From positions 1 to 38,548 of IMG/VR virus record IMGVR_UViG_3300002052_000016: DNA of 38,548 nt. One strand, given 5' to 3'. Of this stretch, positions 1,819-32,809 are shown in pieces. Source of the DNA: a virus. The position numbers and the translations under genes were made by a program. How positions within the stretch are numbered: the first letter of the stretch is position 1; each line of letters begins with the position of its first letter. The notes under the pieces were generated by a model that worked only from the letters and a program-made list of their open reading frames with translations, was not told where the DNA came from and ran no database searches.

Positions 1819-1959
1819 TTATCTGCTCCCCGCTTGCCTGTCCCGTCTTCTTTTATCTATTCTCCACATAATGTACGTGCCCAGAAAAAACACTGCGATC
1901 GCGGTTGCGAATCCGCTCACGAACGATAAAAATATGAAGTACCACGCTGGCATTTCCAT
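1819..1959 (-). CDS. small single-span membrane protein, 46 aa
   Basis: A short gene: 46 residues with one hydrophobic segment of about 25 residues (WYFIFLSFVSGFATAIAVFF and beyond) followed by a strongly basic end (RIDKRRRDRQ), predicting N-out/C-in insertion by the positive-inside rule. GGGAG stands nine bases before ATG 1959; an in-frame second ATG lies two codons later. Its TAA stop is embedded in the start cassette of the next gene (GCAGATAAAATG). It could be a holin-like or superinfection-related membrane peptide; nothing in the sequence decides this. Confidence 0.6.
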   Translation of the reverse strand: MEMPAWYFIFLSFVSGFATAIAVFFLGTYIMWRIDKRRRDRQAGSR

Positions 1960-1967
1960 TTACTTAA

Positions 1968-2212
1968 ACTCCCTGCCCCACCACACCGGACCACACCCTT
2001 GCTAACCGCGCCTTGCCGTACCAGAGACAACCCGACCCGAAAACTTTATAGATAAAAACCCTACCAGACCAGACCATGCCGCACCGGAACAAACCCTACC
2101 GAAAGCACACCGTACCCTGAAAACTTTATAGATAAAATCCCTACCCTACCGGACCACACCGTACCGAAACGCGCCACAACTCACCAGACCATGCCGAACC
2201 ATGCCCGAAACT
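1968..2212. repeat. non-coding tract with pentameric CCNNN periodicity and a three-fold CTTTAT(AGATAAAA) repeat
   Basis: This is the longest gene-free stretch in the window (about 250 bp). On the plus strand most of it can be cut into five-base units starting with CC, e.g. CCAGA CCAGA CCATG CCGCA CCGGA, CCCTA CCCTA CCGGA CCACA CCGTA and CCAGA CCATG CCGAA CCATG. The same element AAACTTTATAGATAAAA followed by CCCTACC occurs at about 2041 and 2121, and a shorter AAACTTTATGCCC at about 2208, giving a spacing of about 80-88 bp. No frame is open through it and no start cassette lies inside it. As minus-strand RNA it would be G/U-rich (GGUNN units). Origin iterons, a packaging site or a structured RNA are all possible. 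Confidence 0.7.
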
Positions 2213-2842
2213 TTATGCCCGACGAACATTCCAGTTGATTATCTTAAACCGTCCATAGGTCGGTCGATAATCTGCAACGCCCGCCAGTTGCCCCGCATTC
2301 TGCAACACGGTGTAGAAGAGATCCGCCGTGATGTATTGCGGTGCGATAACTTGAAACGTAAACTTCGCGCGCCATCCCGTTTTGAATGCCGGTCGCGTCC
2401 GATTGATCGCCTGCCGTTGCACCTGCACTCGCTGCGTATCGAGATAATCCCATTTCTTCGTGCCGAGCGATGCCAGTTGCGTAATGGGCACAATACCGGC
2501 TTTGAACAGATCGGCTGCGCTCTTTCGCGGAGAACGAGGATCGGATTCCGACTTTGCAGCCGTCACCATCGATCCTTTCACGTATGCGCCGGGCAAACAG
2601 ATATACCCGTTATCGTCCCGCCACACATACGTCTCGACATCATCGGTCTTTTTTATCTTCGAATTCTTCGGCGCTTTCGCTTTCTCTTCTACGCTCTCGC
2701 AATTCCATCGCTTGAAGAGCATGTCGCATGCGCCTTCAATTTCGAAGTCGATAAGATACGGTTTATTGAGATCAACAAGATTCTCCGCTCCGTTCGTCGG
2801 TTCACTGATATGTTCTACTGCTGCCGCTGCTCGTCTTGGCAT
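2213..2842 (-). CDS. conserved-looking hypothetical protein, 209 aa
   Basis: Not recognised with certainty. It is a 209-residue globular protein with no membrane segment. The N-terminus is Ala/Arg-rich; the middle contains VWRDDNGYICLPGAYVKGSM and the end reads YGRFKIINWNVRRA, a mixed alpha/beta pattern. The start at 2842 has AGGAG upstream. It is the first gene after the TTATCGGGTAT motif at 2869-2879, so it may begin a transcription unit. Its stop codon overlaps the third copy of the CTTTAT repeat. I recall no family firmly enough to name. Confidence 0.75.
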   Translation of the reverse strand: MPRRAAAAVEHISEPTNGAENLVDLNKPYLIDFEIEGACDMLFKRWNCESVEEKAKAPKNSKIKKTDDVETYVWRDDNGYICLPGAYVKGSMVTAAKSESDPRSPRKSAADLFKAGIVPITQLASLGTKKWDYLDTQRVQVQRQAINRTRPAFKTGWRAKFTFQVIAPQYITADLFYTVLQNAGQLAGVADYRPTYGRFKIINWNVRRA

Positions 2843-3651: not shown

Positions 3652-4029
3652 TTATCTACTCCCCATTCCCGCGTCTATTTTCAGCACTCCCCTCGGTATC
3701 GGAACACCGGTAGTGCGCTCAACAAACAGTGCACAGCACACAGCGAGATCCCGACACTCTGCGAGGGTATCGACACAATCTCGATAATCCGTAGTGCAAT
3801 CGGCCAGCACTTCATGTGTCTTCTTCAACTCGACCGTACATTCATCCATCATAGTGCCGATATCGCGTAAGCTCTGTAGCGTTTCAGCGTGCTTGCGATC
3901 TTCAGCAGCGTGTCTTTCGACTCTACGTTGATGCGCAGCGAAACAGTCCCTCACCGTGAACCCGGCAACCACCAAAATAGTAAGTAGCAACCCGGCAAAT
4001 GCAAGATTGTGCTTCGTCTCGTTCGTCAT
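3652..4029 (-). CDS. membrane-anchored coiled-coil protein with many cysteines, 125 aa
   Basis: I choose the start at 4029 because the cassette GGGAGAATAGATAAA precedes that ATG; an upstream in-frame ATG at 4083 has no ribosome site. An N-terminal hydrophobic segment at about residues 9-26 (LAFAGLLLTILVVAGFTV) is followed by a helical, charged periplasm- or cytoplasm-exposed domain with about seven cysteines (DECTVEL, ADCTTDYRDC, AECRDLAVCC). The N-in anchor plus coiled coil resembles an inner-membrane spanin (i-spanin/Rz) in outline, but no outer-membrane partner is seen, so this is only a possibility. Confidence 0.65.
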   Translation of the reverse strand: MTNETKHNLAFAGLLLTILVVAGFTVRDCFAAHQRRVERHAAEDRKHAETLQSLRDIGTMMDECTVELKKTHEVLADCTTDYRDCVDTLAECRDLAVCCALFVERTTGVPIPRGVLKIDAGMGSR

Positions 4030-4034
4030 TTTAT

Positions 4035-4331
4035 CTATTCTCCCATCGCGACCATTTTGCATTCCCGGTATTCGATCTCGCATTGAGCGTATGTTATCGT
4101 ACCGTCGTATTCCATCGTAACGATCACGTAGCCGCCCCCCTCGGCAATATCAATTCCGCAGATTCGGTATACCGGCTTCTCGCTGACCTTGATAATATTT
4201 GCATCTGCTAGACCGGGGGGATTCCAGTCCGTTTCTTCTTTCGATTCCGCTTGTGCCGGTAACGCAGGAATTCCGACCGCCACGCCGAAACCCGCAAGGA
4301 TCATGTTTTGGATAAACTCTCGCCGATTCAT
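4035..4331 (-). CDS. small exported protein with a Tat-like signal peptide, 98 aa
   Basis: The start at 4331 has the cassette GGGAGTAAATAAA. The N-terminus, MNRREFIQNMILAGFGVAV followed by IPALPAQA, has a twin-arginine pair, a hydrophobic core and an AQA cleavage site, which is a Tat-type (or Sec-type) signal peptide. The mature part is about 70 residues with three cysteines and beta-strand-like stretches (GGYVIVTMEYDGTITYAQC). Exported phage proteins can alter the host envelope; a role in lysis or exclusion is inference. Confidence 0.65.
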   Translation of the reverse strand: MNRREFIQNMILAGFGVAVGIPALPAQAESKEETDWNPPGLADANIIKVSEKPVYRICGIDIAEGGGYVIVTMEYDGTITYAQCEIEYRECKMVAMGE

Positions 4332-4336
4332 TTTAT

Positions 4337-4525
4337 TTACTCCCATCCTTTTTTCAGGCACGTTCGCTTGTGCGCAACATGAATGTCCGGTCTGGGGATA
4401 GCTGTATCGAAAACAAAAATAATCGTTCGCGCCGCCAGATCTTCACGCGACTCCGCTTTATCGAAAAACTCTTCCATCTCTCGATAGCGCTCTACGTTTT
4501 GCGGAACGTAATCGTCGCCGTACAT
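4337..4525 (-). CDS. hypothetical protein, 62 aa
   Basis: Not recognised. It is a small acidic-to-basic protein beginning MYGDDYVPQNVERYREMEEF. The start at 4525 has a perfect GGGAGTAGATAAA cassette that also contains the TAG stop of the upstream gene. The end reads CLKKGWE followed by TAA, which itself lies in the next cassette. Confidence 0.6.
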   Translation of the reverse strand: MYGDDYVPQNVERYREMEEFFDKAESREDLAARTIIFVFDTAIPRPDIHVAHKRTCLKKGWE

Positions 4526-4530
4526 TTTAT

Positions 4531-5052
4531 CTACTCCCACTCCATTTTATTCGATGGATGCAACGGACATTTCTCTCGCGGGCACGCTACCCGTTTACCA
4601 TCTTTGAAACGCTCTACTTTATCGCATTGCGATGCACAGTAAGCCGACACTCTGCCTTGCAACGTACCCAAAGCAATTTCTGCTTTCTCCGCGCGCTGTC
4701 GCTGTTCATCACGGTCTTCTTTTGCCCGACTCAGCCGCTTTAGCGCGCAATCCCGCTCCCGCTCCGCAAGCAACCGCGCATGGTTTTCATCTTGCAGCAT
4801 ACACCTCAGATCACCACCTGTGATAACCTCGTGACGGCGATCGGCCTCTACGTTGTCCACCATCTCGATCAACCAGTCCCGCTCCCGCTCCGCTTCCGCC
4901 AGCCGGGCGCGGAGTATTTCAAGCCCCACCAAAGGCCGGTCACTTTCTGGATCTCCCGGCGCGTATTCGCCGCCCACACCATGCATTTCCCCCGTGGTGC
5001 GGTGTACCATTAGATCGACGCGTACCCACGCTGGCCCGTATGCTTCACTCAT
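4531..5052 (-). CDS. coiled-coil protein with a C-terminal cysteine cluster, 173 aa
   Basis: The N-terminal 45 residues appear globular. Residues about 45-135 are a long charged coiled coil (RARLAEAERERDWLIEMV and AERERDCALKRLSRAKEDRD). The C-terminal part has four cysteines (CASQC, then CPREKC about 17 residues on, then LHPS) that could bind zinc. This layout is common in phage proteins of unknown function. The start overlaps the end of 5045-5218; AAGGAG lies upstream. Confidence 0.7.
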   Translation of the reverse strand: MSEAYGPAWVRVDLMVHRTTGEMHGVGGEYAPGDPESDRPLVGLEILRARLAEAERERDWLIEMVDNVEADRRHEVITGGDLRCMLQDENHARLLAERERDCALKRLSRAKEDRDEQRQRAEKAEIALGTLQGRVSAYCASQCDKVERFKDGKRVACPREKCPLHPSNKMEWE

Positions 5053-5557: not shown

Positions 5558-5902
5558 TTATTTATCCATGATGATCTCGATCGGCTTGCCCGCTTCATTG
5601 AACAAATCGATCGTGTTTTTCGTTCCCCGGCTCTTCCCATCCCAGAACGCAATACCGCGATCGGAGATATCCACGATAACTACATTGCGCAGTGGCCCGG
5701 CCGCTTTGCCGAATGCATCCCAATTCGGGTAAACAATTATCCACATTAACCCGTATTGCTTCGCCGCCGATACCGCGAACGTGTCGACTCCCTTCGCTCC
5801 CCCGCTGACGATCACGGTATCTCGCGGCAGTGACGCGACCATCGATAAAATCAACGTCGGGTCCGCCCATGTTCTGCTACCAACGATCGCAACTCTTTCC
5901 AT
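5558..5902 (-). CDS. SLOG-superfamily (DUF2493/YspA-like) nucleotide-binding protein, 114 aa
   Basis: The N-terminus MERVAIVGSRTWAD is a Rossmann-like first strand with a glycine loop, followed by DTVIVSGGAKGVDTFA, the hallmark GG-x-x-G-x-D loop of SLOG/DprA-like folds, and AAGPLRNVVIVD. The length equals that of stand-alone DUF2493 proteins. Members bind nucleotides or nucleotide derivatives; the substrate is unknown. The start has the cassette GGGGAATAGATAAA. In a region with a DUF4406-like protein and an Acb2-like protein, a role in host nucleotide signalling is possible (inference). Confidence 0.8.
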   Translation of the reverse strand: MERVAIVGSRTWADPTLILSMVASLPRDTVIVSGGAKGVDTFAVSAAKQYGLMWIIVYPNWDAFGKAAGPLRNVVIVDISDRGIAFWDGKSRGTKNTIDLFNEAGKPIEIIMDK

Positions 5903-5907
5903 TTTAT

Positions 5908-6303
5908 CTATTCCCCTTCATCCTCTTGATCGTCGAGATCTTCCCAATACTCTTCGATAAGCTCGCAAACTTTCGCGCGAGCATTCGGCGTAATATTCGC
6001 CAAGCAATCGACCGGCACTGTTCCGTGAAGCTCTTGAAGATGCTCGCTCAATAATTCCCAGATGCCGCCGTAGTACCAGCCGTCACAGAAAAATGTCTTG
6101 CGTACGCTCAGACAATCCATGCAAGTTCGATAATTTTCTTTTCTCCCCTCGAACGTGGCAAAAATATATTCGTACTGTTCCCCCTTCGTTATTTCCCGAC
6201 CGCACTCCCCGCATTTATACGGTTTGCGCGCTTTGCGAATGCCCTCGCTGATCACCGTCACGAATTCATCGACTTCAACATATACGCATCCGCAATCGCC
6301 CAT
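5908..6303 (-). CDS. zinc-binding hypothetical protein, 131 aa
   Basis: Two CxxC knuckles, CGECGREI at about residues 31-38 and CMDC about 25 residues later, form a likely zinc ribbon, with further cysteines at the N-terminus (CGC) and in FFCDGW. The last 40 residues are acidic. I recall similar two-knuckle proteins in many phages, without assigned function. The start uses a variant cassette (GGAAAGATTAGATAAG-ATG) that contains the TAG stop of the 29-aa membrane peptide. Confidence 0.7.
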   Translation of the reverse strand: MGDCGCVYVEVDEFVTVISEGIRKARKPYKCGECGREITKGEQYEYIFATFEGRKENYRTCMDCLSVRKTFFCDGWYYGGIWELLSEHLQELHGTVPVDCLANITPNARAKVCELIEEYWEDLDDQEDEGE

Positions 6304-6308
6304 CTTAT

Positions 6309-6398
6309 CTAATCTTTCCTGAAAAGATCCGGAATGGTGCCGACGATCATCAACACCATTGCGATAAACATGATCGCTAGGAATTCTTCGTTAGTCAT
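6309..6398 (-). CDS. 29-aa membrane peptide
   Basis: MTNEEFLAIMFIAMVLMIVG followed by TIPDLFRKD: one hydrophobic helix with acidic N-terminus and basic C-terminus. The ATG follows the upstream stop with no gap (TAAATG), and the TAG stop sits in the next gene's start cassette. The tight fit at both ends supports translation. Such peptides can act as holin-like or membrane-targeting factors; unknown here. Confidence 0.5.
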   Translation of the reverse strand: MTNEEFLAIMFIAMVLMIVGTIPDLFRKD

Positions 6399-6683
6399 TT
6401 AGCAGGCGATATTGATCTTCGGAGCCGTCTTTCTTTCTTCGGCGAAAAGCGCATCGGTTATTTTATCTACCGACGTGTAACCCGATAAACTTTTGTCATT
6501 GCGCTCGTTGTGCGCATTGTAGATATGCCCGCCCTCGACATCGTTGACGGATACAACCAATTTCCATTGCTGCCAATACGCAACGCCCGGCCCGCGACGA
6601 TATGGGCACGATTCCTTTTTGCGCCAGTTCGCTTCATCGCGTGCCCGCACGAATGCTGCTTTCAATTCCTTTTTCGTTTTCAT
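6399..6683 (-). CDS. hypothetical protein, 94 aa
   Basis: Not recognised. The N-terminus is basic and helical (MKTKKELKAAFVRARDEANW), followed by a beta-rich middle (WKLVVSVNDVEGGHIYN). Cassette start GGAGAGTAGATAAATG. It ends directly on the ATG of the membrane peptide. Confidence 0.65.
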   Translation of the reverse strand: MKTKKELKAAFVRARDEANWRKKESCPYRRGPGVAYWQQWKLVVSVNDVEGGHIYNAHNERNDKSLSGYTSVDKITDALFAEERKTAPKINIAC

Positions 6684-6687
6684 TTAT

Positions 6688-6858
6688 CTACTCTCCGACT
6701 AATGGTTTCATCTCATCGAGAATTGTCTGCGCCTTTTCGATAAAGTCTTCGGTCGTAACCTGTCGACGCGGTATCTTCAATACGAGAAGCAGCATCCGCA
6801 ATTCGAGCGTGCGCAGCCGTTCACCCTTTTCCAGTTCCGTCATCCTTCGTTGCTTCAT
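6688..6858 (-). CDS. hypothetical protein, 56 aa
   Basis: A short helical, charged protein (MKQRRMTELEKGERLRTLEL and on). GAGGGA lies eight bases before ATG 6858; an in-frame ATG at 6843 is an alternative. It overlaps the end of 6821-7051 by 38 bp, and its TAG stop is embedded in the next cassette. Function unknown. Confidence 0.55.
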   Translation of the reverse strand: MKQRRMTELEKGERLRTLELRMLLLVLKIPRRQVTTEDFIEKAQTILDEMKPLVGE

Positions 6859-7051
6859 GCTGCGCATCCCTCGCTTTCATTTTATCTTCCATGTGCATGA
6901 ACTTCCGGCGTATCCCGGTCATCGGTTTACTACCCAAGAAATGACCCCATGAAACATCACTAGATAACTTCCGGAGTAGATAAAGTAATGCTTTCACCTC
7001 TGCGTCGGTGAAACTGTTGGCAAGCGGAAGGCGCGGTTTACTTGTCGCCAT
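6821..7051 (-). CDS. hypothetical protein, 76 aa
   Basis: I take ATG 7051 (MATSKPRLPLANSFTDAEVK) because it overlaps the end of the upstream gene in the manner usual here; no strong ribosome site is seen, so translation may be coupled. The C-terminal 25 residues are very charged and hydrophilic. Not recognised. Confidence 0.55.
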   Translation of the reverse strand: MATSKPRLPLANSFTDAEVKALLYLLRKLSSDVSWGHFLGSKPMTGIRRKFMHMEDKMKARDAQHEATKDDGTGKG

Positions 7052-7418
7052 AGATAATCTTGCGAATTCGTGCGAGGGCTGTTTCGTATGAATCATCTCT
7101 CGACAAGTTATCGATCAGTTCTTTGACCTCGTGTAGCTGCGCCCACGCATCGCTGATATCCGGCACCCGCACCGCTTTGATTTTATCGTTTATTTCATCG
7201 ATCTGCCATTCGTACAGCGGCGCAGTCATCCCCTCTTCGACCAGTTCGAATTCATACGAATAGGCAAAATATTCGATGTATGGCCCGAAAAAATTAGATT
7301 CAGCCTTTATGATAATGCATTTAGCCATTATCTTAAAAAGCAATTCGTTTCCCCATGACCAGATCAGATCAGCATTGATCCGAAACCGGCCGATCCGTTT
7401 GCGCAGATCGTCATCCAT
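7038..7418 (-). CDS. hypothetical protein, 126 aa
   Basis: The start ATG 7418 overlaps the stop of the Acb2-like gene (TAATG). A longer upstream frame would run antisense to nothing useful and overlap that gene fully, so I reject it. The protein is acidic with mixed secondary structure; SNFFGPYIEYFAYSYEFELV is an aromatic-rich strand region. It is co-transcribed with the Acb2-like gene. Function unknown. Confidence 0.6.
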   Translation of the reverse strand: MDDDLRKRIGRFRINADLIWSWGNELLFKIMAKCIIIKAESNFFGPYIEYFAYSYEFELVEEGMTAPLYEWQIDEINDKIKAVRVPDISDAWAQLHEVKELIDNLSRDDSYETALARIRKIIYGDK

Positions 7419-12986: not shown

Positions 12987-14687
12987 TCAATCCCCTAGTT
13001 CTATTTCGATAACCTGAGTGTTTTCTTTCGCCTTACGCAATCGCTCTTTGCGCTCCCGTATTGATTTTTCGAGCAAGATAGCGGCGTGCTTCAATTCGCG
13101 TTGTGAGCGCATGAATTCCTCTTCGCCGCCCTCTTCGCTGCCGAGATCCGTTTCGTCGCTTTCTCCGCCGCCCCCGAACTGATCACCGTACTGATCTTCA
13201 CTCCCGTCGCTTTCGCCGGGTCCGAGATCGCCACCCCCGCCCTGCTCCGCCATCGCCTCTTTGCCTTGCAGGTATTGTAGATAAGTTGGATTAAGAATCA
13301 GATCACCGTATTCCAACGGTTCGTGATCTAGCTCTGCGCGAATCTCGTTTATCGTTCGCCAATTCTGTACTTCATCTTGTCGACGCTTACGCTCTTTCTC
13401 TTCAGCCTTCGCGTCCAGCCCGCTGAATGTAAACTCTAGATCCGGAGCCTGCTCCCAGATAAGATGTTGATTGATGTAATCCTGAATGTGCTCTGCTAGC
13501 GGGATCAGTCCTTTATCTTTTGACTCGACAACCTCTTCTTTTTGCGGACGCGCCTGATTCAACCCGCCGCGCTGCCCCGTATTGCCAAAGATAAAATTGA
13601 TTTCAGTCGGATCTACACCGTAGATAGCGCAGATTAACTTAGTCAACCAATCCATCCATGCCGAGAATTCCATTTCCCGGTTAGACGAATGCATGTTGAC
13701 CCACTGAATATCTTCAGAGTTAAGAATCGGGGTCTTCCAGGCATTCTGTACGCCTGCAACCATCGCGTACCACTGTCGACGAAACGCCCGCAGTTGCCGA
13801 TCAGGAATCGCCCCTTTGATATTCAGCAACCCTTTTATCGCGCTACCTTGCGTAAAGAATCGCGTATTGTATTCGAAACCGAAAAGCCATGCAGTAACGA
13901 GTCGAACGATTTGTTCTACCGGGCTGAATCCGAAACTATTGGTTCGGAGATCGCTGCGCGGGTTCATGATGCACCACGCGATATCGTCGACTGCGAATTC
14001 CGCGATAACCGTATTCTCGTAAACTTGAACGTGACTCACCCGGTCACGTCTCTGCGCCGGGTCCATGTGCTCTATGTCAGCAACAGCGGGTCTGATCGTC
14101 TCTGCGGGCAAACAGATAAAACGCGAAATCTTTCCGGAACGATCTCGTATCTTCTCAAAACACCATTGATCGTATGTGAGAATATCCCGTGTAGACTTTC
14201 GCAGAAAGTGCCGAAACGAATCGCGATCAGATGGACGCTCATCCGGCAATAAATAACCGGTTGTTTCCAGCATCGCTTCGAGCTTCGATGCCATCTCTTG
14301 TTCGGCATCACTCATCGACTTTTCATTGTCGCGCCGATCCCGAAGCACAACCCGAAAACCGCGATCGTACACCTCTTGCTGCGGTCTGGAAAAATGCGAG
14401 ATCTGATTCGTGCGCAAATTGATAATCGCTGCAATGACCGTGTTCTGTACCGACATGATCCGCAGCGTCTCGTATGTGAGCGCAGACGGGCGTTGCCGCC
14501 AGCCTCCCCAATCCATTACCGTATACGGATCGTGAAAGAGCGCTCGCGGCTTATCGGTAGTCGGTTCCGCTAATCCAGTTGCGACCAGCGCTTTTTGCAT
14601 TTCATCGAACGGTACATCATCTTCCGAAGTCAACGCCCATTGCGTGACTTTCCGTACCGTCGACCCTATTTGATCGAGTAATGCCAT
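12987..14687 (-). CDS. phage portal protein (HK97/SPP1-like), 566 aa
   Basis: The portal forms the dodecameric ring at the head vertex for DNA passage. The sequence shows the usual order: N-terminal clip/wing region (QTVRKVT...ETLRIMSVQNTVIAAIINLR), a middle with FEKIRDRSGKISRFICLPAE, the stem-type segment SFGFSPVEQIVRLVTAWLFG, FEYNTRFFTQGSAIKGLL, then the IYGVDPTEINF region typical of HK97-type portals, and a long acidic C-terminal tail (EEGGEEEF). The ATG overlaps the stop of the large modular protein (TAATG). The length is usual for this family. Confidence 0.88.
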   Translation of the reverse strand: MALLDQIGSTVRKVTQWALTSEDDVPFDEMQKALVATGLAEPTTDKPRALFHDPYTVMDWGGWRQRPSALTYETLRIMSVQNTVIAAIINLRTNQISHFSRPQQEVYDRGFRVVLRDRRDNEKSMSDAEQEMASKLEAMLETTGYLLPDERPSDRDSFRHFLRKSTRDILTYDQWCFEKIRDRSGKISRFICLPAETIRPAVADIEHMDPAQRRDRVSHVQVYENTVIAEFAVDDIAWCIMNPRSDLRTNSFGFSPVEQIVRLVTAWLFGFEYNTRFFTQGSAIKGLLNIKGAIPDRQLRAFRRQWYAMVAGVQNAWKTPILNSEDIQWVNMHSSNREMEFSAWMDWLTKLICAIYGVDPTEINFIFGNTGQRGGLNQARPQKEEVVESKDKGLIPLAEHIQDYINQHLIWEQAPDLEFTFSGLDAKAEEKERKRRQDEVQNWRTINEIRAELDHEPLEYGDLILNPTYLQYLQGKEAMAEQGGGGDLGPGESDGSEDQYGDQFGGGGESDETDLGSEEGGEEEFMRSQRELKHAAILLEKSIRERKERLRKAKENTQVIEIELGD

Positions 14688-17600
14688 TATCGCTTACAAG
14701 TACACGCCCCGTGCGGGTTCTGAAAGTTTTGATCCTTCGTAAGATCACGCGAGCCATGAATAATACAACTCGCGTTCACATTTGCTCTCACCGACTGATC
14801 CGGATAAAGCTGTCGCACTTTTGACTTGTGTAGCACACCGACATCACCGAACGGATTACCTGGCATGGGAACTGCGGGGCGAGCATCCGGCTCACTTGCC
14901 AGTTTTACGCCCGGTGCGCCTTGCGCCCACGGGTTCTGTTCGCTCGCCAGCATAACTTCACCGGTCGGGCTTGCATCCCCGGTAACACCCATACTGGTCA
15001 TCGAATCCCAATCGGTCGAAAAATAACTGCTGGCCGGATCGTTGTAATCTCGACCCGACGGTTTCGAATCTGATGGGGTCGCAATGAAGTTCCGCTGCTT
15101 GATAATATCTGCAAGCGTTTGCTGCGTAACTTTGTATTTCTTAGTCGCGCGCATTAGATTTTTATCTTGCGGCATCTGCCGAACGAGCATCTGCATCGCC
15201 TCTTGCGCTGCCCGCGTGTAAATATCCTCACCCGCTGTCAACGCCTTCAAACGATTGCGGCAATCGTAACTGGTTATCGCTTCTTTCACGAAGCCCGCGA
15301 GATATTCGAAGAGGTACGCATCGGGAAGATCCTTGGCCTTGCCGTCGCGATCATCGTACGAGTAAATACCCTTACTCAATTTATACGTGTCGCCCTCTTG
15401 CTGGTACATCGGCTCGCTCCCTTCCGACTTTTTTGTTTTTCCGGACGCCATCAACGCTTCGTGAAAAGTTTTTCCGGGGTAAGGATCTGGCTTCCGCTTC
15501 TTTTCAGCTTCCGCTCGTTCCGATTCGCCGATTGCATCTCGGAACCGCTGAATTTTCTCTTTATGATCTTCAATCCACCCCTTCAATTCTTTATGCGCAT
15601 CCGACTCTTCTTTCCGCTCACCCTCTGGAATATATTTGCCAGTAACAGTTGACCAGACTTCGATAACATGCCTCTTCAAATGCGGAGTCGACCACACAGT
15701 TCTAACACGAGGGGGATTATTTCTTAACAGCCTCAAATCTCGTTCTAACTTTTTTGAATCAAGCGACAATGGGGATTTTTCTACCCACTTTTGCGCCTGC
15801 GCTAACTTTTGTTTCGTAGCAGGACCGAATTGCTTTTCACCTTTCCATGGAATCGTATGCTTCGGATCAGCCCATTGTCCACCCTTCGGGCCGATATACG
15901 GGCCAGCCTTCGATAACACTTCAAGTTGATCGATTGCATCCATGGATTTCATCTCCGTATACTCCTTCATATACCCGAAGATTTCCTGATAGTTATCTTC
16001 CATCGTGCGCGTGTTCGAGCCGACCGCCGGGCGTTCCGTTCCACTGCGTGAAACGCCGTACGTCTTCGTATCTTGCATTTCATCGGCAGGAATAACCATC
16101 TTACCCATCATCTGCGGTTTCTTTTCGGGCTTCTGCGGCGGCTGTTGCCCCGACTTCATCGGCGGTTGACCTTTGCCGTTTTCATCTTTACTGCGCATCG
16201 CTGGATGACTGCCATTGTTACCGTTGCCGTTACCATTCCCGTTCATCGTGTGATGCGACGGGGGCGGCTTCGGTGCGCCATTGCTGTTTTGATGCGCAAG
16301 ATAATCATCGTACGCTGCTTTGTGCGGCCCGGCATCGAAATGGTGCTTCTGCGCGTGCTTCATCGCACCATGCACTAGCTCTTCGGGAATATCGGTGCCC
16401 TGCAACCCTTGCTTGCGCGCCGCTTTCCATTGTTTGAAATGCTCGTAATGCTCACTATGATGCGGCATTTCCCAATGCGCGCCTTCGGGAGTTTCATCGC
16501 TCACCACGAAACGCGCATCTTCGGGCCGTTCGTCTTCCGATAAAAGTTCGAATGTAAATTCACCGGGCTTTTCGGGATTCTCGATTTTAGTTTTATATTC
16601 TCTCTTATCGCCCGGCTGCGGCTTGCCATCATTACCGTTCGGTTTCTTTCCAAAAGGAGGCTTATCATTTTTCTTATCAGCTTTCTGATCTTTACTCTGT
16701 CCCTCTTTATTCATAAGATCGGCAAACTTCCCGATCAGATCAATCGCATCACCGACCATCTTTGCCGCGAGCCGTTCCTTTGCCTCTTTCTTCGAACCAG
16801 GCGCACCGGTTCGCCGACTGAACGTTTCGAGACTAACTTTTTCGCCTTCGATAATCGGAGCCTTGCCTTGCGCAACTCTTTGCGTGTTCGCGTTCTTTGC
16901 TTCCGCCAATGCGCGCAACGCGCGCCTGATACCGGGCGTGCGCTTACCAAGCATTTCGATTGCGTCGACCATCTTCGCTTCCGGTAAATTCTTTCCCTTC
17001 ACTCTGCGCGACCATTCGCGCGCTTTCCCTTTCGGCAACTCTCCGCGCGCTTCGGCTGCAAACGCCCATCTCCGCTGCGCTTCGCTTACAGGATGCGGAG
17101 TCTTTTTCCTCGCAGCCTTTTCGAGTTGATCGATCGCATCCATAGCAACCTCTGATTTTCTAATTCGGTGCGGACCATCCGCATGAAGATACTCGCCTCT
17201 GCGATGAAATCCTTTGCCATTCCACTTAAATTGGGAACGCTTTTTCGGGCCACGCATACCGATATAACCACCATGCGTATAGGTGGTAGTAATCATCGTG
17301 GGACTTACACTTTCTATCCGCATTTCATTGTGCTGCCCTTTTCCAACAATATCGCCAGTTCGTAATTGTGCCGCATGTGATTGTGTAAAAAGATGCGTTT
17401 CATTTTGCGGTTTAGGTTTTTCCGGAACTGCTTTCCCCGACAATTGATCATAAACTTCTTTCCAAGTGCTACCAGTCGCAATTCGCTTATCTCGCGTTTC
17501 CCAATCATACCCGCCGGGTTTTGGTTCACTTTGCCCCAAGTCAATTACGCCGACACCTCCATCATGTAAATTACGCATCACCGGCTTTACACCGATACGC

Positions 17601-18664
17601 GTTTCTTGATTGCGACGAATCATTCTCAAAATTTCATCTTCATATTCCCGTTCTGTTTGCGGGCCTTTTTTTTCCGCAGTAGGCGTTTCTTCTTTCCATG
17701 GGATCGTATGCTGGGGGTCTGCCCATTTACCACCCTTCGGGCCAATATAAGGACCGCCTTTCGATAACGGCGCAAGTTGATCGATCGCGTCCATGGCAAC
17801 CTCTGATTTTTTTATTGTCGAATCCGCTTTTTGACGATGCAAACGCATACCATGAAAAATTTGTTTTTTAGCGAGATCCGGGCCTAATGGATAAACTTTA
17901 CCGCTTGCCTTCCAACGCGAATAAACACCTTCAACTGCCGACCGTTCGCTATCGTTTGGCAGTCCACCTTTCTGCCAATCCGCAGACAAGTCATCTACTG
18001 TTGCATGATGAATGTAATCGAATGCTTTTTCTTTCTGTCTTACTTTATCAAGATATTTTTGGTAAGCCGCCTTTTTTCGATCTTCTTTCGCTTCTCCGCC
18101 ATTCACATGCGCGCCCGATCCGTGCGCCCGCTCGTACGCTTCTTTCGTATAGTAATAATCATACGGGCGCTTCGGGTTACCTGTCGGTACGCGACGATAA
18201 TACGCGCCCCCGCGCGCCTGCCCTTTCGACAACTCTTCAAGTCGATCAATCGCATCCATCGACTTCTTTATATACTGCTTTTTGAACGCGCTAACCGGGC
18301 CTTCCCATGTCGGTTCATGCGAAAACGTATGCCGGTGCGCCCGCTCCCATTCTTCTTTCGTCACACTGGAAAAATCAGCATCTTTCTTTTTATGAAGAAT
18401 ATCGTGAAAAAGTTGAAACGCTTTTTTGTTCTTTTCGTGCTCGTTATCAAGATGCTCTTCAACGTGTTTACGACGTTCGGCGATTGCTTGCTGCATTTCT
18501 TTCGCAGACGTACCAAGCGGCGCATTGCCTTGTTCGTGCTGCCGCTTCAACCGTTCGTGCGCGTCATGAAGAAACTTTCCCCGTTCATCACCCGGATACA
18601 AATAACGATAACCACCACCCGGCTTCGGATAACGCGCAATATAGTTATGCCCATGCGGCTCCAT
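14687..18664 (-). CDS. large modular head-associated protein with internal repeats, 1325 aa
   Basis: A highly hydrophilic, K/E/G/P-rich protein. It is built from cassettes headed by a short helix motif MDAIDQLE-LSKG, seen at about DNA positions 18240, 17780, 17140, 16950 (VDAIEML), 16750 (GDAIDLIGK) and 15930. Two of them continue GPYIGPKGGKWADPQHTIPW, a peptide I recall from other large phage head proteins. Others continue with YYRRVPTGNPKRPYDYYY or SEAQRRWAFAAEARGELPKG segments, and the N-terminus has ARYPKPGGGYRYLYPGDE. Residues about 690-870 are a low-complexity linker rich in N, G, P and H. No catalytic motif is recognised. It sits between a SKAQ-type head protein and the portal. Inference: a scaffold, internal head or ejected protein made of docking cassettes. 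Confidence 0.75.
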   Translation of the reverse strand: MEPHGHNYIARYPKPGGGYRYLYPGDERGKFLHDAHERLKRQHEQGNAPLGTSAKEMQQAIAERRKHVEEHLDNEHEKNKKAFQLFHDILHKKKDADFSSVTKEEWERAHRHTFSHEPTWEGPVSAFKKQYIKKSMDAIDRLEELSKGQARGGAYYRRVPTGNPKRPYDYYYTKEAYERAHGSGAHVNGGEAKEDRKKAAYQKYLDKVRQKEKAFDYIHHATVDDLSADWQKGGLPNDSERSAVEGVYSRWKASGKVYPLGPDLAKKQIFHGMRLHRQKADSTIKKSEVAMDAIDQLAPLSKGGPYIGPKGGKWADPQHTIPWKEETPTAEKKGPQTEREYEDEILRMIRRNQETRIGVKPVMRNLHDGGVGVIDLGQSEPKPGGYDWETRDKRIATGSTWKEVYDQLSGKAVPEKPKPQNETHLFTQSHAAQLRTGDIVGKGQHNEMRIESVSPTMITTTYTHGGYIGMRGPKKRSQFKWNGKGFHRRGEYLHADGPHRIRKSEVAMDAIDQLEKAARKKTPHPVSEAQRRWAFAAEARGELPKGKAREWSRRVKGKNLPEAKMVDAIEMLGKRTPGIRRALRALAEAKNANTQRVAQGKAPIIEGEKVSLETFSRRTGAPGSKKEAKERLAAKMVGDAIDLIGKFADLMNKEGQSKDQKADKKNDKPPFGKKPNGNDGKPQPGDKREYKTKIENPEKPGEFTFELLSEDERPEDARFVVSDETPEGAHWEMPHHSEHYEHFKQWKAARKQGLQGTDIPEELVHGAMKHAQKHHFDAGPHKAAYDDYLAHQNSNGAPKPPPSHHTMNGNGNGNGNNGSHPAMRSKDENGKGQPPMKSGQQPPQKPEKKPQMMGKMVIPADEMQDTKTYGVSRSGTERPAVGSNTRTMEDNYQEIFGYMKEYTEMKSMDAIDQLEVLSKAGPYIGPKGGQWADPKHTIPWKGEKQFGPATKQKLAQAQKWVEKSPLSLDSKKLERDLRLLRNNPPRVRTVWSTPHLKRHVIEVWSTVTGKYIPEGERKEESDAHKELKGWIEDHKEKIQRFRDAIGESERAEAEKKRKPDPYPGKTFHEALMASGKTKKSEGSEPMYQQEGDTYKLSKGIYSYDDRDGKAKDLPDAYLFEYLAGFVKEAITSYDCRNRLKALTAGEDIYTRAAQEAMQMLVRQMPQDKNLMRATKKYKVTQQTLADIIKQRNFIATPSDSKPSGRDYNDPASSYFSTDWDSMTSMGVTGDASPTGEVMLASEQNPWAQGAPGVKLASEPDARPAVPMPGNPFGDVGVLHKSKVRQLYPDQSVRANVNASCIIHGSRDLTKDQNFQNPHGACTCKR
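15841..15945 (-). repeat. 105-bp direct repeat, copy 2 (in the modular protein gene)
   Basis: Aligns without gaps to 17692-17796; I count 19 mismatches by eye (about 82% identity), many in third codon positions. Encodes MDAIDQLEVLSK and the GPYIGPKGGQWADPKHTIPW peptide. Confidence 0.85.
17692..17796 (-). repeat. 105-bp direct repeat, copy 1 (in the modular protein gene)
   Basis: Partner of 15841-15945. Encodes MDAIDQLAPLSK and GPYIGPKGGKWADPQHTIPW. Further, more diverged copies of the MDAIDQL helix alone lie at about 18240 and 17140. Confidence 0.85.
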
Positions 18665-20985: not shown

Positions 20986-22752
20986 CTAGAATAGATTAAT
21001 TTCAGAATTATCGCCACGCTCTTCGGGCGGGCCTAGCAAGACATCCATGTAATCTTCATCATCGCCCGGTTCTTTATCGTCTTCTTTGTTATCGTCTTCA
21101 TCGAACGCGAAAGAAAAGCCCGCAGAACGCGCAGCTTCGTCGGCGAACCACCATGCCATCACCGTATCGTCATGTACGCCTATTCCCTGCAATTTCCCGT
21201 CAACATAACCGAACTGCGAGCACTCTTCCATCCAGATATCGGTAATGGCCCGACTATACTCATCACCACGGGGGATAACAAGTTTCTTATTTTCGAGAGT
21301 AATCCGCAAGCCCGGCACGCCTTTATCGAGAGGATATTTGTTGACCGCAGTAGTAACAAATTCTTTCACCGGCAGATCGGTCATCCGCCGCATCTCATCG
21401 GTATACAACTGCTGCATCGCATTCGATTCGATATAAATAAGAGACGGATCGTACCGAGCCGCTTCGATTGCAATCTGCTGCAACTGATCACGAAACGATA
21501 ATCCTTTTGATCGATGTATGTCGACGAGATATCGATTGCCTGCTTTATCCTTTGCCAATGTAAAGATAACAAAATAATCCGCGCCCACGCTGGCGCTGCG
21601 CGCAATGTCGACCCCCATAAAAATCGTCCAGCCCCGTTGCTCGATTGCCTCTTTTGTCGGGCGCAACGTTAAAACCTCATCGAACAGGGGCGGGAATAGA
21701 TAAGTCGGAAAAATCGAAATGTCATCATTGATCGCAAGGCACATGATCTCACGCGCGAATGCGATCGGCCCAATCTCTTTCTTTTTTTCGTAAAGCTGCG
21801 CCAGTGACCATCGCCACGGAAACAGCGCTCGTTCTTTCCCTTCGTCGCGAAGAATGCCTGGATAACGAAAGAACTTGTAAACTTCATTCTTTTCAAGCCA
21901 ACCGAAAAGGTCCGCCATGTGATAGGGAGTGCCGACTACAATACATTGCCCGCCTTCGAACCAATCGCCGTGTTGCGTGTACGGCATAACCATGTTGACG
22001 ATAGCGGACTGAAAGTACGCAATGTTTTTCTGGCGCACCGTCTCCGACCACATATCTTCATCATTCAACGGATCATCGAGCACAACGTATTTCGGGTGAC
22101 GACCACGGATTGCCTTTCCGTATCCAACCGCCCGCAATCGCGAGCCGTTCGTCAAGATAACATCGTTGCGATTCAGCCGCGTACGTCTACGGGGATCGCG
22201 AACAGCATCTTGATCCGGAACGAGATGCGAAAGCTTCGGAATATCGGCAATCCCTTTTAGATTGTTCCGACCCCATAAGATTATATCGATAAACTCTTGT
22301 GCCTGCTCTTGCGTCTTCGAGAAAATATAAATTTCGACGCCCGGCTCTTTCCACGCCCACCATATCGGGCACACGTATGAAAAGAACGTGCTCTTCGAAT
22401 GGTCACGCGCAGCCTGGATCGCAAGCCGCGCGTGCTTATTTATCAATTCCGACCACTCTTCAAGATGCGCGCCGATCTCGACACCGAGAACATCGCGCCC
22501 GAAAAGCGCAGCCGACGATTCTAACAATTGACGATAAACTTCTCGCCAATAGTTATCGTCTTCATCGCCGAATCCGGCAGTTTGAATGCGCATTCCCGCG
22601 TGCGGGCCAGGATCTTCATCGATCGGTGCCGCCGGGTGATGCGGAAGAGGTAATGGCCGCGCTTTCTTTCCCGACTTTATCGGAGAAACGGGTATCGGCC
22701 GCGCCCGCTTAGTCGAGTGCGGTTTTACACCTGTAGCGCTACTGCCGGGCAC
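20986..22752 (-). CDS. terL: terminase large subunit, 588 aa
   Basis: The packaging motor: ATPase plus headful/cos nuclease. Walker A variant ARDHSKST at residues 115-122, Walker B YVVLDD at 222-227 with the acidic DPLNDED after it. The RNase H-like nuclease has D382 (MGVDIA), E442 (IYIESN) and HDD at 527-529 (GVHDDTVMA). A basic, proline-rich N-terminal extension of about 50 residues precedes the ATPase. The start is GTG at 22752 with a weak ribosome site; ATG at residue 54 is an alternative that keeps all domains. The acidic C-terminal tail (DEDDNKEDDKEPGDDEDY) is likely the portal-contacting end. Confidence 0.95.
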   Translation of the reverse strand: MPGSSATGVKPHSTKRARPIPVSPIKSGKKARPLPLPHHPAAPIDEDPGPHAGMRIQTAGFGDEDDNYWREVYRQLLESSAALFGRDVLGVEIGAHLEEWSELINKHARLAIQAARDHSKSTFFSYVCPIWWAWKEPGVEIYIFSKTQEQAQEFIDIILWGRNNLKGIADIPKLSHLVPDQDAVRDPRRRTRLNRNDVILTNGSRLRAVGYGKAIRGRHPKYVVLDDPLNDEDMWSETVRQKNIAYFQSAIVNMVMPYTQHGDWFEGGQCIVVGTPYHMADLFGWLEKNEVYKFFRYPGILRDEGKERALFPWRWSLAQLYEKKKEIGPIAFAREIMCLAINDDISIFPTYLFPPLFDEVLTLRPTKEAIEQRGWTIFMGVDIARSASVGADYFVIFTLAKDKAGNRYLVDIHRSKGLSFRDQLQQIAIEAARYDPSLIYIESNAMQQLYTDEMRRMTDLPVKEFVTTAVNKYPLDKGVPGLRITLENKKLVIPRGDEYSRAITDIWMEECSQFGYVDGKLQGIGVHDDTVMAWWFADEAARSAGFSFAFDEDDNKEDDKEPGDDEDYMDVLLGPPEERGDNSEINLF

Positions 22753-29335: not shown

Positions 29336-29792
29336 CTTGCTTCCGTGCTTGCTCTAGCTTCGCAAGCATTTCGTTCTCGGCATCTTGCTTTCGCTCTTGT
29401 TCTAACTTTTCGAACAACTCTTGATTCGCAATCATTTCATTCAGCTTACTTTCCTGCTCACCGGATATTTCCTTCAAACGAAGAAAGCGGATGCCTCGCT
29501 GAATGACTAATGCTTTTATCCCCATCTCTGCCAATCGCGTACCCATCACGCTAATTTCAGCAGGCGATTTAATTTCCGGTACTTCAACGATCACGAAATC
29601 TTCAAGCACACCGAGCATGTAGCCTGACTCTCTTACGCCGACAACTTCTTTCTTTCTTTCATCGAAGTAGGCTTCGATCTCGTACCAATGTTTCCCAGAC
29701 TTACGCAGTTTTCCGCCCGGCCGTTTACGCCGCGCCGCAACACGCTTTGCGCGATTCACTTTTTTCTGAACATCGTCTTTATCAATACTCAT
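29277..29792 (-). CDS. hypothetical protein with duplicated helix, 171 aa
   Basis: Basic N-terminus (RAKRVAARRKRPGGKLRKSG), then an alpha/beta middle (FVIVEVPEIKSPAEISVMGT), then a tandem repeat KLEQERKQDAENEMLAKLEQ / KLEQARKQDAEN in the C-terminal helix. Function unknown; its place between the SbcCD fusion and RuvC suggests a recombination accessory protein. Confidence 0.65.
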   Translation of the reverse strand: MSIDKDDVQKKVNRAKRVAARRKRPGGKLRKSGKHWYEIEAYFDERKKEVVGVRESGYMLGVLEDFVIVEVPEIKSPAEISVMGTRLAEMGIKALVIQRGIRFLRLKEISGEQESKLNEMIANQELFEKLEQERKQDAENEMLAKLEQARKQDAENSESDTTESKIGSADA

Positions 29793-32700
29793 GATGCTAC
29801 CTTCAATATCGCCTCTTCGTCCGTTCGCTGCAACTCGTACACATTATCGAAATATCCTCTCACCGTCAGGTCATGATCAATTGCGATAATATTTGCACGA
29901 TCTAGTGTTTCGAGAATTTCGCAGACCCGTCGCTTTTGCGTCTGTCCAAGATGCGTTGTTAGCTCATCAATAGTAAGTAGATCGATCCGCACACCGCATC
30001 GATTGAAAATCAAATCGGATAAAGCGAATGGAGCAAACGCAAGCTCGACACAACGCCGCTGACCACCCGATAATTTCTCGTATGCGCGTTCGTGGATATT
30101 GCCTTGCATATCCTGTTCAAAATACAACACGCGCAGATCATCGCCATCCATTGCCAACTGGCAATGAAGTTTCCCATCGAGAAGTTTCGAAATATATCGA
30201 TTCGCTGCTAGTTCTAACTCATACAGCGCTGTTCGGAGAACGAGAACGGGTAAGCCCTTTGCGCTAAACCCTTCCACCCAAAAAAGCAAACTATCTTTCT
30301 CTTCCGATAACTTCCCGGCTTGTTCGGCAAGCTCTCTGAGCCGTTCAGTCAACTCTTGAATCTTCGCTTTATTCTGCGCCGCTTGCTGTTCAAATGGATT
30401 TTGAACCATCGCTTTCTTTGTGTAGTCAACGCGAGCTTTTTCGAGAGCAGACTGCGCGTTCTGCATGTTCTCGCGTATGCGCGCAAACTGCGGTAGCGCT
30501 GCATCGCATTTCTTCAACGCCTCCCGCGATTCCACCAGCGCAATTTCCATCTGCGCTTTTTCTTCTGTGCTACCACTATTCAACGCGTCCAATTCAGCCG
30601 CAATATTTGATAACCGCGATTGAAACGAAGTAAGCTCTGTATTCTTACTCGCAACCTTTGCTTCATGCGTTTGGATATGTTGTTCGACCGTTCCCGTCGG
30701 CAACGGCTGCCCGCATTCTTTACAAATCGCCGCACCCTGGTTCGCTTGCTCGATAAGACGATTCAGTTCAGTCTGCGCGTTATTTCGATCGCGCTCTACA
30801 ATCGCCCGCTCTGCTTCCAGCGCGCCATACTGTCGTTGTAACTCTGCAATCCTTTTCGTCGGCCGAAGCTCTGCAAGTTGTTTTGTTATATTCTCTATTC
30901 TCTGGTCATGCAGCTTCTTTGACTTCAACCACTCCCCTTCACCTTTCAACAATTCTTCGCAGTTTGCGACTTTCGCTTTCGCTTCGTGCCCGGTCTGTGT
31001 AAGCTGATCCAATTCTATTTGTTTTTGGCGTTCCCATTGCTGAATCTGCTCGCTGAAATTCTGCGTTTCAAGCGTTGCTTTTTGCGTCTCAGCAACCGTC
31101 TGTTGATGCTGCGCGTTTGCCAGCGTTGCATTTACAACGTCTAGCCGTTTCTTCGCGACTTTTTGCGCAGCCGGGCACGATTCGAGATCGAATGCACTGG
31201 AAAGTAAATCCTTCCGACGCTTATCAGCATCCGTTGCAAAGTTCGCAACCGCCCCCTGTCCAAGTGCAACGCACGCACGCCACAACTCGTACGGGTATCC
31301 GATAATCTGCCGGATCAGTTTTTGCTGATCGGATATCCCCTCTTTGACTTTTATACCCTTTATCGAAACTGTCGACCCTTTGCCCCGTTGCTTCGCGCGC
31401 GTAACGACGATCTCTTTACCGCCGACTTCGACCTTGCATGAAACAGAGCACTCGGTCGCGTAATCATTTATCACGTCATCCGCACGCAACGTCGCTCCGA
31501 TCTGCCCCGCCTTGCGCGGAGTAGTCGACCCGAAAAAGCACCATCCGGCCGCATCGGCAATCGCCGTCTTGCCGATACCGATCGGGCCAGTAATCAACGC
31601 GCGACCCATCTCGGATACATTGATAAAAAGCTCACCCGGAACCACGCAGAAATCTTTCAGCGTAATTTCCGTTATCGAGACTTCCGGCCCCAATGGTGCA
31701 AGCGCAGTCGCTTCCGGAACTTCCGATAAGATATCCCGACCCAATGCAACCAGATCCATTTCATCGAACGGATGCGCTACGCTCTGCAACTCCTGATTGA
31801 CATACTGCGCGATTGCATCATCGAGCTTCAACGCAAACGACGGTGCCGCTTTCTCAGATGGCAATGCCTTCGGAGCCGTTCGCACATTCGCCGGAATCGT
31901 CGCAAGCGCTTCGGCAAAATCGGGGTGCTGCATGTCTTGCGGGTATGCTTGCACCTCGACAATATCGTTCTCTTTTACCGCCGACAGATCCCACTCATCA
32001 CCGTAAGTGAATCGCCAGTAGCGCGGGAATATATCGAGATCGATCCAGACTGGTTCTACTTGCTCGCTCGTAATAAGCGCGATCCCGTGCGGCTGATCTC
32101 GCTCGCCTATATCGAGTTCGTAAGGCGAACCAATATACCAGATGCGATCACCTATTTGCTGCCGTTTATGATAATGCCCTAAATAACACGCGCGAATGAA
32201 CGGCTCAATTTGCTTTGCAGTAAATAGCCCCGACGCTTTTTTACCACTATTCGCAATCGCTCCCGCAACTTCGCCATGTCCAAAAACCGACCATGGATAA
32301 CCTCGATATTTTGATTCAACCTTTCCTAAGTCAAAAATAGAATTTTGTTCTTCGGGTCGTTCTCGCCATGGAATAAAAGCACACTGTAATTCAGTCAGCA
32401 ACAACCGATTAGTCACTACTTCAATGTCTTGATAACCTCGAAAGATGTTCATCCCGTGAATCGTGCCATCGAGCGCAACCTGATCATGGTTACCGGGAAT
32501 GAAAACCTTTCGAGCTTTTATCGATTCGATTGCAGCGAGTACCCGCTCGACCTGTCGAACATCGAGCGTGCCGCGCATGTCCCAGAAGTCGCCAAGGCAC
32601 ACAACATCCGCACCGTACTCTTCTGCTTTCTCACCGACGATCGATAAAAGCTCGCACGCACGGTCGAGTGTTTCGTTATTCACATGCAAATCGCTGAACG

Positions 32701-32809
32701 CAATATATCGAAATGGTTCGCCCGGTGCGGCTTTTTTCCGAACCGGTTTACGCTTCGCTGGCTTACTCGGAAGTGGTTTTATCGGTCTAGCTACTTTAGG
32801 CATTTCCAT
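29789..32809 (-). CDS. single-chain SbcD-SbcC (Mre11-Rad50 / gp47-gp46) fusion nuclease-ATPase, 1006 aa
   Basis: DNA end-processing nuclease. Residues 1-30 are a basic linker. Residues about 33-330 are a calcineurin-like phosphoesterase with all five SbcD motifs: D40-x-H42 (FSDLHV), GDFWD 73-77, GNHDQ 106-110, FGHGE 176-180 and GHYH 211-214. Residues about 378-1006 are a Rad50/SbcC ATPase: Walker A GPIGIGKT 408-415, coiled coil with zinc-hook CKEC 696-699, signature LSGGQRRC 913-920, Walker B LLTIDEL 944-950 and an H-loop AIDHD. In T4, E. coli and most phages these are two genes; here no frameshift or stop lies between them. ATG 32809 overlaps the recA-like end. Confidence 0.93.
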   Translation of the reverse strand: MEMPKVARPIKPLPSKPAKRKPVRKKAAPGEPFRYIAFSDLHVNNETLDRACELLSIVGEKAEEYGADVVCLGDFWDMRGTLDVRQVERVLAAIESIKARKVFIPGNHDQVALDGTIHGMNIFRGYQDIEVVTNRLLLTELQCAFIPWRERPEEQNSIFDLGKVESKYRGYPWSVFGHGEVAGAIANSGKKASGLFTAKQIEPFIRACYLGHYHKRQQIGDRIWYIGSPYELDIGERDQPHGIALITSEQVEPVWIDLDIFPRYWRFTYGDEWDLSAVKENDIVEVQAYPQDMQHPDFAEALATIPANVRTAPKALPSEKAAPSFALKLDDAIAQYVNQELQSVAHPFDEMDLVALGRDILSEVPEATALAPLGPEVSITEITLKDFCVVPGELFINVSEMGRALITGPIGIGKTAIADAAGWCFFGSTTPRKAGQIGATLRADDVINDYATECSVSCKVEVGGKEIVVTRAKQRGKGSTVSIKGIKVKEGISDQQKLIRQIIGYPYELWRACVALGQGAVANFATDADKRRKDLLSSAFDLESCPAAQKVAKKRLDVVNATLANAQHQQTVAETQKATLETQNFSEQIQQWERQKQIELDQLTQTGHEAKAKVANCEELLKGEGEWLKSKKLHDQRIENITKQLAELRPTKRIAELQRQYGALEAERAIVERDRNNAQTELNRLIEQANQGAAICKECGQPLPTGTVEQHIQTHEAKVASKNTELTSFQSRLSNIAAELDALNSGSTEEKAQMEIALVESREALKKCDAALPQFARIRENMQNAQSALEKARVDYTKKAMVQNPFEQQAAQNKAKIQELTERLRELAEQAGKLSEEKDSLLFWVEGFSAKGLPVLVLRTALYELELAANRYISKLLDGKLHCQLAMDGDDLRVLYFEQDMQGNIHERAYEKLSGGQRRCVELAFAPFALSDLIFNRCGVRIDLLTIDELTTHLGQTQKRRVCEILETLDRANIIAIDHDLTVRGYFDNVYELQRTDEEAILKVAS

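Follow-up and report, generated by a model that had tools for sequence, protein, structure and literature searches.

A probable VIPR guide array adjoining its vipr gene in a tailed phage

The intergenic tract at positions 1968-2212 of a 38,548-nt viral DNA (IMG/VR record IMGVR_UViG_3300002052_000016; this whole stretch is called the window) is very probably an array of VIPR guide RNAs (vrRNAs) accompanied by its own vipr gene, in the genome of a tailed phage. Three observations carry this reading: the anatomy of the array, the homology and fold of the protein encoded beside it, and the linkage of such arrays to Vipr in many phages. The locus adds to a recently described kind and is unusual in being without vap and in having short, unstructured linkers.

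VIPR, a phage-borne relative of CRISPR, was first described in April 2026, in a preprint, as a phage-encoded RAMP protein (Vipr) together with vrRNAs, each composed of 9-16 YNNGG units in which GGY is conserved and NN is hypervariable (PMC13142463). The guide reads DNA with a 1-nt skip, using two bases out of each five of its own. The system, characterized experimentally in phage SUSP1, represses competing phages; staggered, overlapping guides are also mentioned, and this gapped-code RNA-guided DNA recognition is proposed to precede CRISPR (PMC13142463).

Results

Autocorrelation analysis of positions 1967-2222 yielded a self-identity of 0.442 at lag 5, against 0.299 for dinucleotide shuffles (z 5.3; reached by 0 of 1000 shuffles), with additional peaks at lags 10, 15, 20, 25 and 30. 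The lag-5 signal was the maximum among all 250-nt stretches of the window, which confirms the five-base rhythm reported in a preliminary description of this DNA. The flanking genes lie on the minus strand, where the unit is best written as GGYNN; its plus-strand form is RCCNN. The same description had parsed the tract as continuous CCNNN over 250 bp: the pentamers were found as described, but RCCNN fits them better and their phase is reset at every linker. The tract was correctly taken to be non-coding: it is intergenic, bounded by a stop codon (2213) and an ATG (1959).

Read on the minus strand, the region resolves into three GGY-NN tracts of 13, 11 and 13 units (Table 1), numbers that fall inside the published vrRNA range of 9-16. 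Exact GGY was found in 31 of the 37 units (11/13, 9/11 and 11/13 in guides 1, 2 and 3), the third base was a pyrimidine in 36, and one unit of guide 2 was 6 nt long. The information content at unit positions 1 to 5 was 1.82, 1.20, 1.13, 0.06 and 0.16 bits: GGY is conserved and NN is near random across the three tracts. Elsewhere in the window, no more than 5 GGY per 13 slots were counted on the minus strand and 4 on the plus strand; shuffling the tract 2000 times gave at most 8, against the 11 observed.

The linkers between the tracts are 23-24 nt long, AT-rich and contain ATCTATAAAGTTTTC, exact at 2039-2053 and 2119-2133. Copies of AAACTTTAT are found at about 2041, 2121 and 2209, spaced by 80 and 87-88 nt, in agreement with the spacing first given for three CTTTAT repeats; the complete AAACTTTATAGATAAAA, however, occurs only twice, the third copy (2208-2217) being the AAACTTTATG core in a shortened linker motif, CATAAAGTTT. 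No other exact copy of the linker motif was found in the window when it was sought as a possible phage promoter. As regards the invariant 3' tail that follows the repeats in VIPR systems, and that is structured in the SUSP1 clade, the AT-rich linker is common to the ends of guides 1 and 2 and is weak after guide 3, and no significant fold was detected. All three guides terminate in AG-GG, which may be the start of the tail. Among the earlier suggestions, a G/U-rich RNA came closest: the minus-strand RNA is G/U-rich. It folds no better than shuffled sequences, however (z -0.4 with the array taken whole; 0.1, -0.7 and 0.0 for the single guides), so the reading as a structured RNA is not supported.

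Table 1. Features of the vipr locus and of the putative guide array (positions in the window)
Feature	Positions	Strand	NN letters	Basis
vipr, 209-aa RAMP-superfamily protein (Cas7/Csm3-like) with C-terminal glycine-rich loop GVADYRPTYGRF	2213..2842	-		BLASTP, phmmer, profile, AlphaFold
Leader of guide 1 (CATAAAGTTTCG), with vipr stop codon TAA	2206..2217	-		sequence
Putative vrRNA guide 1, 13 pentamers	2141..2205	-	AT TC AT CT GA GT GC TC AC GT CC AG AG	decoding and shuffles
Linker 1-2 (GGATTTTATCTATAAAGTTTTCAG)	2117..2140	-		sequence
Putative vrRNA guide 2, 11 units, one of them 6 nt long	2061..2116	-	AC GT TT AG TT CC GC AT CT CT AG	decoding
Linker 2-3 (GGTTTTTATCTATAAAGTTTTCG)	2038..2060	-		sequence
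Putative vrRNA guide 3, 13 pentamers	1973..2037	-	CG TG CT AC AA GC TA AG GT CC GT GG AG	decoding
Array 3' end (GGAGTTTAAGTAA), abutting the next start codon, weakly linker-like	1960..1972	-		sequence
Next downstream ORF, 46 aa, one hydrophobic segment; VIPR membership not implied	1819..1959	-		ORF list

The gene directly upstream of the array, on the same strand, encodes a Vipr homologue, and the array begins at its stop codon, which overlaps the first leader. The product is a small, single-RRM RAMP homologue. A pairwise BLASTP comparison with the Felixounavirus Vipr homologue gave 34% identity over 73 aa (E 6e-12), and the protein also matched PHROG 4652, to which that homologue belongs. In the PDB, the sole sequence match by phmmer was 36pp, 'SUSP1 Vipr protein' (E 5.6e-7); a profile that combined the window protein with 52 relatives from IMG/VR, SUSP1 being left out, hit 36pp at 5e-44, the next hit being Csm5 at 0.75. 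The tblastn search with the window Vipr reached phiSUSP1, as well as phage DSL-LC04 (OR003939.1; 53% over 98%), whose protein WJZ48083.1 is the closest named relative (53% identical). The family-invariant residues W157, G184, G188 and G197 are all present.

The AlphaFold model of the protein (mean pLDDT 89.9, pTM 0.82) had Csm3 and type VII Cas7 as its top solved folds (Foldseek E values starting at 4e-7, and Z 12-13 across about 160 residues). Judged by this model, the window protein has the Cas7/Csm3 RAMP fold, an assignment that concerns fold and not activity. Structural matches from weak to good were also obtained in BFVD with proteins of archaeal viruses, A7WKN2 (Betalipothrixvirus) and A0A0A0P750 (Los Azufres archaeal virus 2), and with the siphovirus protein A0A8S5R426 (ctcMb1), which is annotated as RAMP superfamily; on these model comparisons, all three are candidates for further VIPR proteins. 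The GenBank label of WJZ48083.1 (positions 4004-4621 of the DSL-LC04 locus, L155), helix-turn-helix transcriptional regulator, is probably wrong.

The window carries genes for a portal, a terminase, a DNA polymerase A and a UvsX-like recombinase, as expected for a phage. The accessory gene vap is typical of VIPR systems, though not universal. No homologue of the SUSP1, DSL-LC04 or clade-member neighbours that could serve as vap was found within the window; an unrelated vap, or one located off the contig, is possible. The 46-aa ORF that follows the array gave no phmmer match to neighbours of other vipr genes. Elsewhere on the minus strand, a 1325-aa ORF (14687-18664), which comes immediately downstream of the region where the portal gene starts, matched no Pfam or PHROG family. 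A 1006-aa protein (29789-32809), also encoded on the minus strand, combines a calcineurin-type phosphoesterase domain at its N terminus with an AAA/SMC domain at its C terminus and resembles an SbcD-SbcC fusion.

In a low-stringency blastn search of phages, ten weak matches were obtained (E 0.8), all of Felixounavirus type and all located in intergenic pentamer tracts on the strand equivalent to that of the window; this shared architecture led us to suspect a common system. When the tract parser was applied to SUSP1 (KT454805.2, L156), GGY tracts were obtained up- and downstream of ALH47069.1, as published.

In IMG/VR, a DNA pattern of eight RCCNN units, which uses no protein information, retrieved at least 120 loci. 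With an HMM built up from the proteins of the window, DSL-LC04, SUSP1 and bumzen, a Vipr homologue was identified in 87 of the 120 pattern-selected loci listed. None was present in the 31 control loci, which had been picked for their portal similarity; the controls are fewer and total 0.29 Mb against 1.06 Mb. In the loci listed, 85 of the 87 homologues lay on the GGY strand, at a median distance of 90 nt from the tract. Given this contrast and distances so short, a chance association is hard to maintain. Pentamer tracts with Vipr alongside thus recur in other phages, a comparison called for at the outset. The early opinion that such phasing is not typical of terminators or spacers is supported. 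The 33 listed loci with no Vipr match include short fragments and probably some GC-rich coincidences. A search of IMG/VR for related loci with Vipr alone as bait found none; the DNA pattern was the better bait. Since vipr was absent from 16 of 16 portal-carrying relatives tested, records that may be fragments, the VIPR module looks accessory.

A degenerate, inactive VIPR locus with a decaying array is improbable. It would account for the 6 of 37 units that are not GGY, the unit with an extra base, the imperfect third tail and the lack of a vap in the window; against it, Vipr is intact at its invariant residues, the active tracts of SUSP1 also contain GTT, TGT and AGT units, and the tracts remain far above chance.

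Sites for a TRAP-type ring RNA-binding protein, acting as a cis attenuator or a sponge, were considered as well. TRAP sites have a period of about 5 and come in 11 units, and the tracts hold 11-13 units of period 5. The motif, however, is GGY and not (G/U)AG, a RAMP gene is adjacent both here and in most of the pattern-selected loci listed (87/120), and near-random NN is what guides require, so that this explanation is very unlikely. The same low probability is given to two-layer G-quadruplexes (GGN3) on the G-rich strand with a regulatory or replication role: the GG-N3-GG spacing of the tract is suited to such structures, but their loops do not need the pyrimidine kept at the third base, and the linked RAMP gene would be left unexplained. 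An iteron replication origin or a packaging recognition site near the head genes, both raised in the preliminary description, would fit intergenic repeats in a terminase-bearing phage and are nevertheless the least credible readings, as iterons are near-identical repeats and two of five bases are almost random here, portal (12987-14687) and large terminase (20986-22752) are both distant, and tracts in unrelated phages accompany Vipr on the same strand.

Tandem Repeats Finder listed no array here, which, with the near-random NN, speaks against iterons. A class 1 CRISPR-Cas locus was rejected: there are no near-identical direct repeats with spacers, and none of the genes scanned had a Pfam cas match. 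Rfam searches of positions 1400-2900 (E up to 1) and of the window with eight VIPR loci (gathering cut-offs) returned nothing; the array therefore corresponds to no known RNA family or hammerhead.

Scans of IMG/VR and GTDB gave no convincing target for any guide, only chance-like partial matches. Seeds of 8 units in IMG/VR gave 15, 9, 7, 4 and 1 stretches, the extensions stopping as chance predicts. The best full matches, 10/11 units for guide 2 (L173) and 10/13 for guide 3 (L189), occurred in chance-expected numbers and were rejected as targets, being out of wobble phase of the coding frame or mismatched. A match of 8/13 units to guide 3 in the wobble phase of a phage protein (L188; TNAYRVPVG) was within chance. 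Two 20-base scans of 84,980 GTDB genomes were empty, and 30 other records (29 portal-carrying relatives and DSL-LC04) held no target with up to 3 mismatches. This lack of targets says little.

Phylogenetic analysis of 56 Vipr proteins grouped the protein of the window with that of DSL-LC04 (96/85), inside an eight-member clade (100/100) that stands on a long branch, apart from SUSP1.

Discussion

The array extends from the vipr stop codon to 13 nt before the next start codon, for which the simplest reading is a single vipr-guide transcript. Such a minus-strand transcript would run through vipr and the three tandem vrRNAs and could then be cut at the AT-rich linkers; the promoter and terminator scan remained at chance level and showed no promoter-like site inside the array. 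Vipr subunits would coat each vrRNA, about one per GGYNN unit. From the RAMP fold and the published SUSP1 work, GGY is expected to anchor the protein while the two N bases are displayed. By analogy with SUSP1, the N pairs may read double-stranded DNA in a pattern that skips one base after every two (NNxNNx...), and a single guide would then recognise some 22-26 bases within a span of 33-39 bp. Such binding would silence the transcription of competing elements, whether phages, satellites or prophages; silencing rather than cutting is favoured because no nuclease-like partner gene was found.

We tentatively suggest that the locus represents a variant of VIPR with neither a structured 3' tail nor vap, in which the linkers, TTTTATCTATAAAGTTTTC, would serve as leader or processing sites. 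Because the vipr stop codon falls within the first leader, the guides might then be cut from the vipr mRNA itself.

An independent, compact locus found from the raw rhythm of its DNA supports the 2026 VIPR account and adds a complete vipr with three guides that belongs to a clade separate from the SUSP1 group. VIPR loci are widely retrieved by a simple pentamer pattern, and the range of layouts within one clade, from discrete guides to dozens of continuous units, makes guide processing directly comparable.

The other members of the clade are DSL-LC04 and the IMG/VR loci L037, L055, L069, L103, L107 and L153, with 41-53% identity to the window Vipr. As in the window, GGY tracts adjoin the gene in DSL-LC04 and the clade loci; in DSL-LC04 they lie just upstream of vipr, and here downstream. 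The loci L055, L103, L069 and L107 carry near-continuous arrays of dozens of units, in contrast to the three discrete guides of the window, while L037 has five discrete guides with conserved hairpin linkers where the window linkers are short and AT-rich. Within the limits that contig ends set to this comparison, layouts vary inside one clade, and array layout is therefore not a simple function of Vipr phylogeny.

Some of these layouts deserve description. In L055, well over 100 GGY-NN units (6297-7150) follow right after vipr (5652-6296), nearly unbroken and with no clear linkers. In L037 (reverse complement), up to 900 nt after vipr, the guides are split by a linker GGGCCTTATTGCRAGGAATARGGCGGYTAA..ACCGCCTTAT..ACGTGCAAT with hairpin-forming parts, a candidate tail or processing element. 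In L153 and L039, RCCNN tracts lie upstream of vipr on the opposite strand, facing it, and are possibly divergent guides.

The SUSP1 system (type II; PDB 36pp) shares with the window a single small phage-encoded RAMP protein and tandem GGY/NN vrRNAs that adjoin vipr on its downstream side and have its orientation. It differs in several respects: in the window no vap separates the array from vipr, whose stop codon marks the array's start, the linkers are AT-rich and 23-24 nt long whereas SUSP1 has a long tail with a pseudoknot, no upstream guide is present, and the window Vipr belongs to another clade.

With Csm3 and type VII Cas7 of class 1 CRISPR, the window Vipr has in common the RAMP fold and the glycine-rich loop, and, like the class 1 effectors, it is expected to coat its guide RNA. 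Unlike class 1 CRISPR, the locus has no cas operon or direct-repeat/spacer array, and its guide would be read in gaps.
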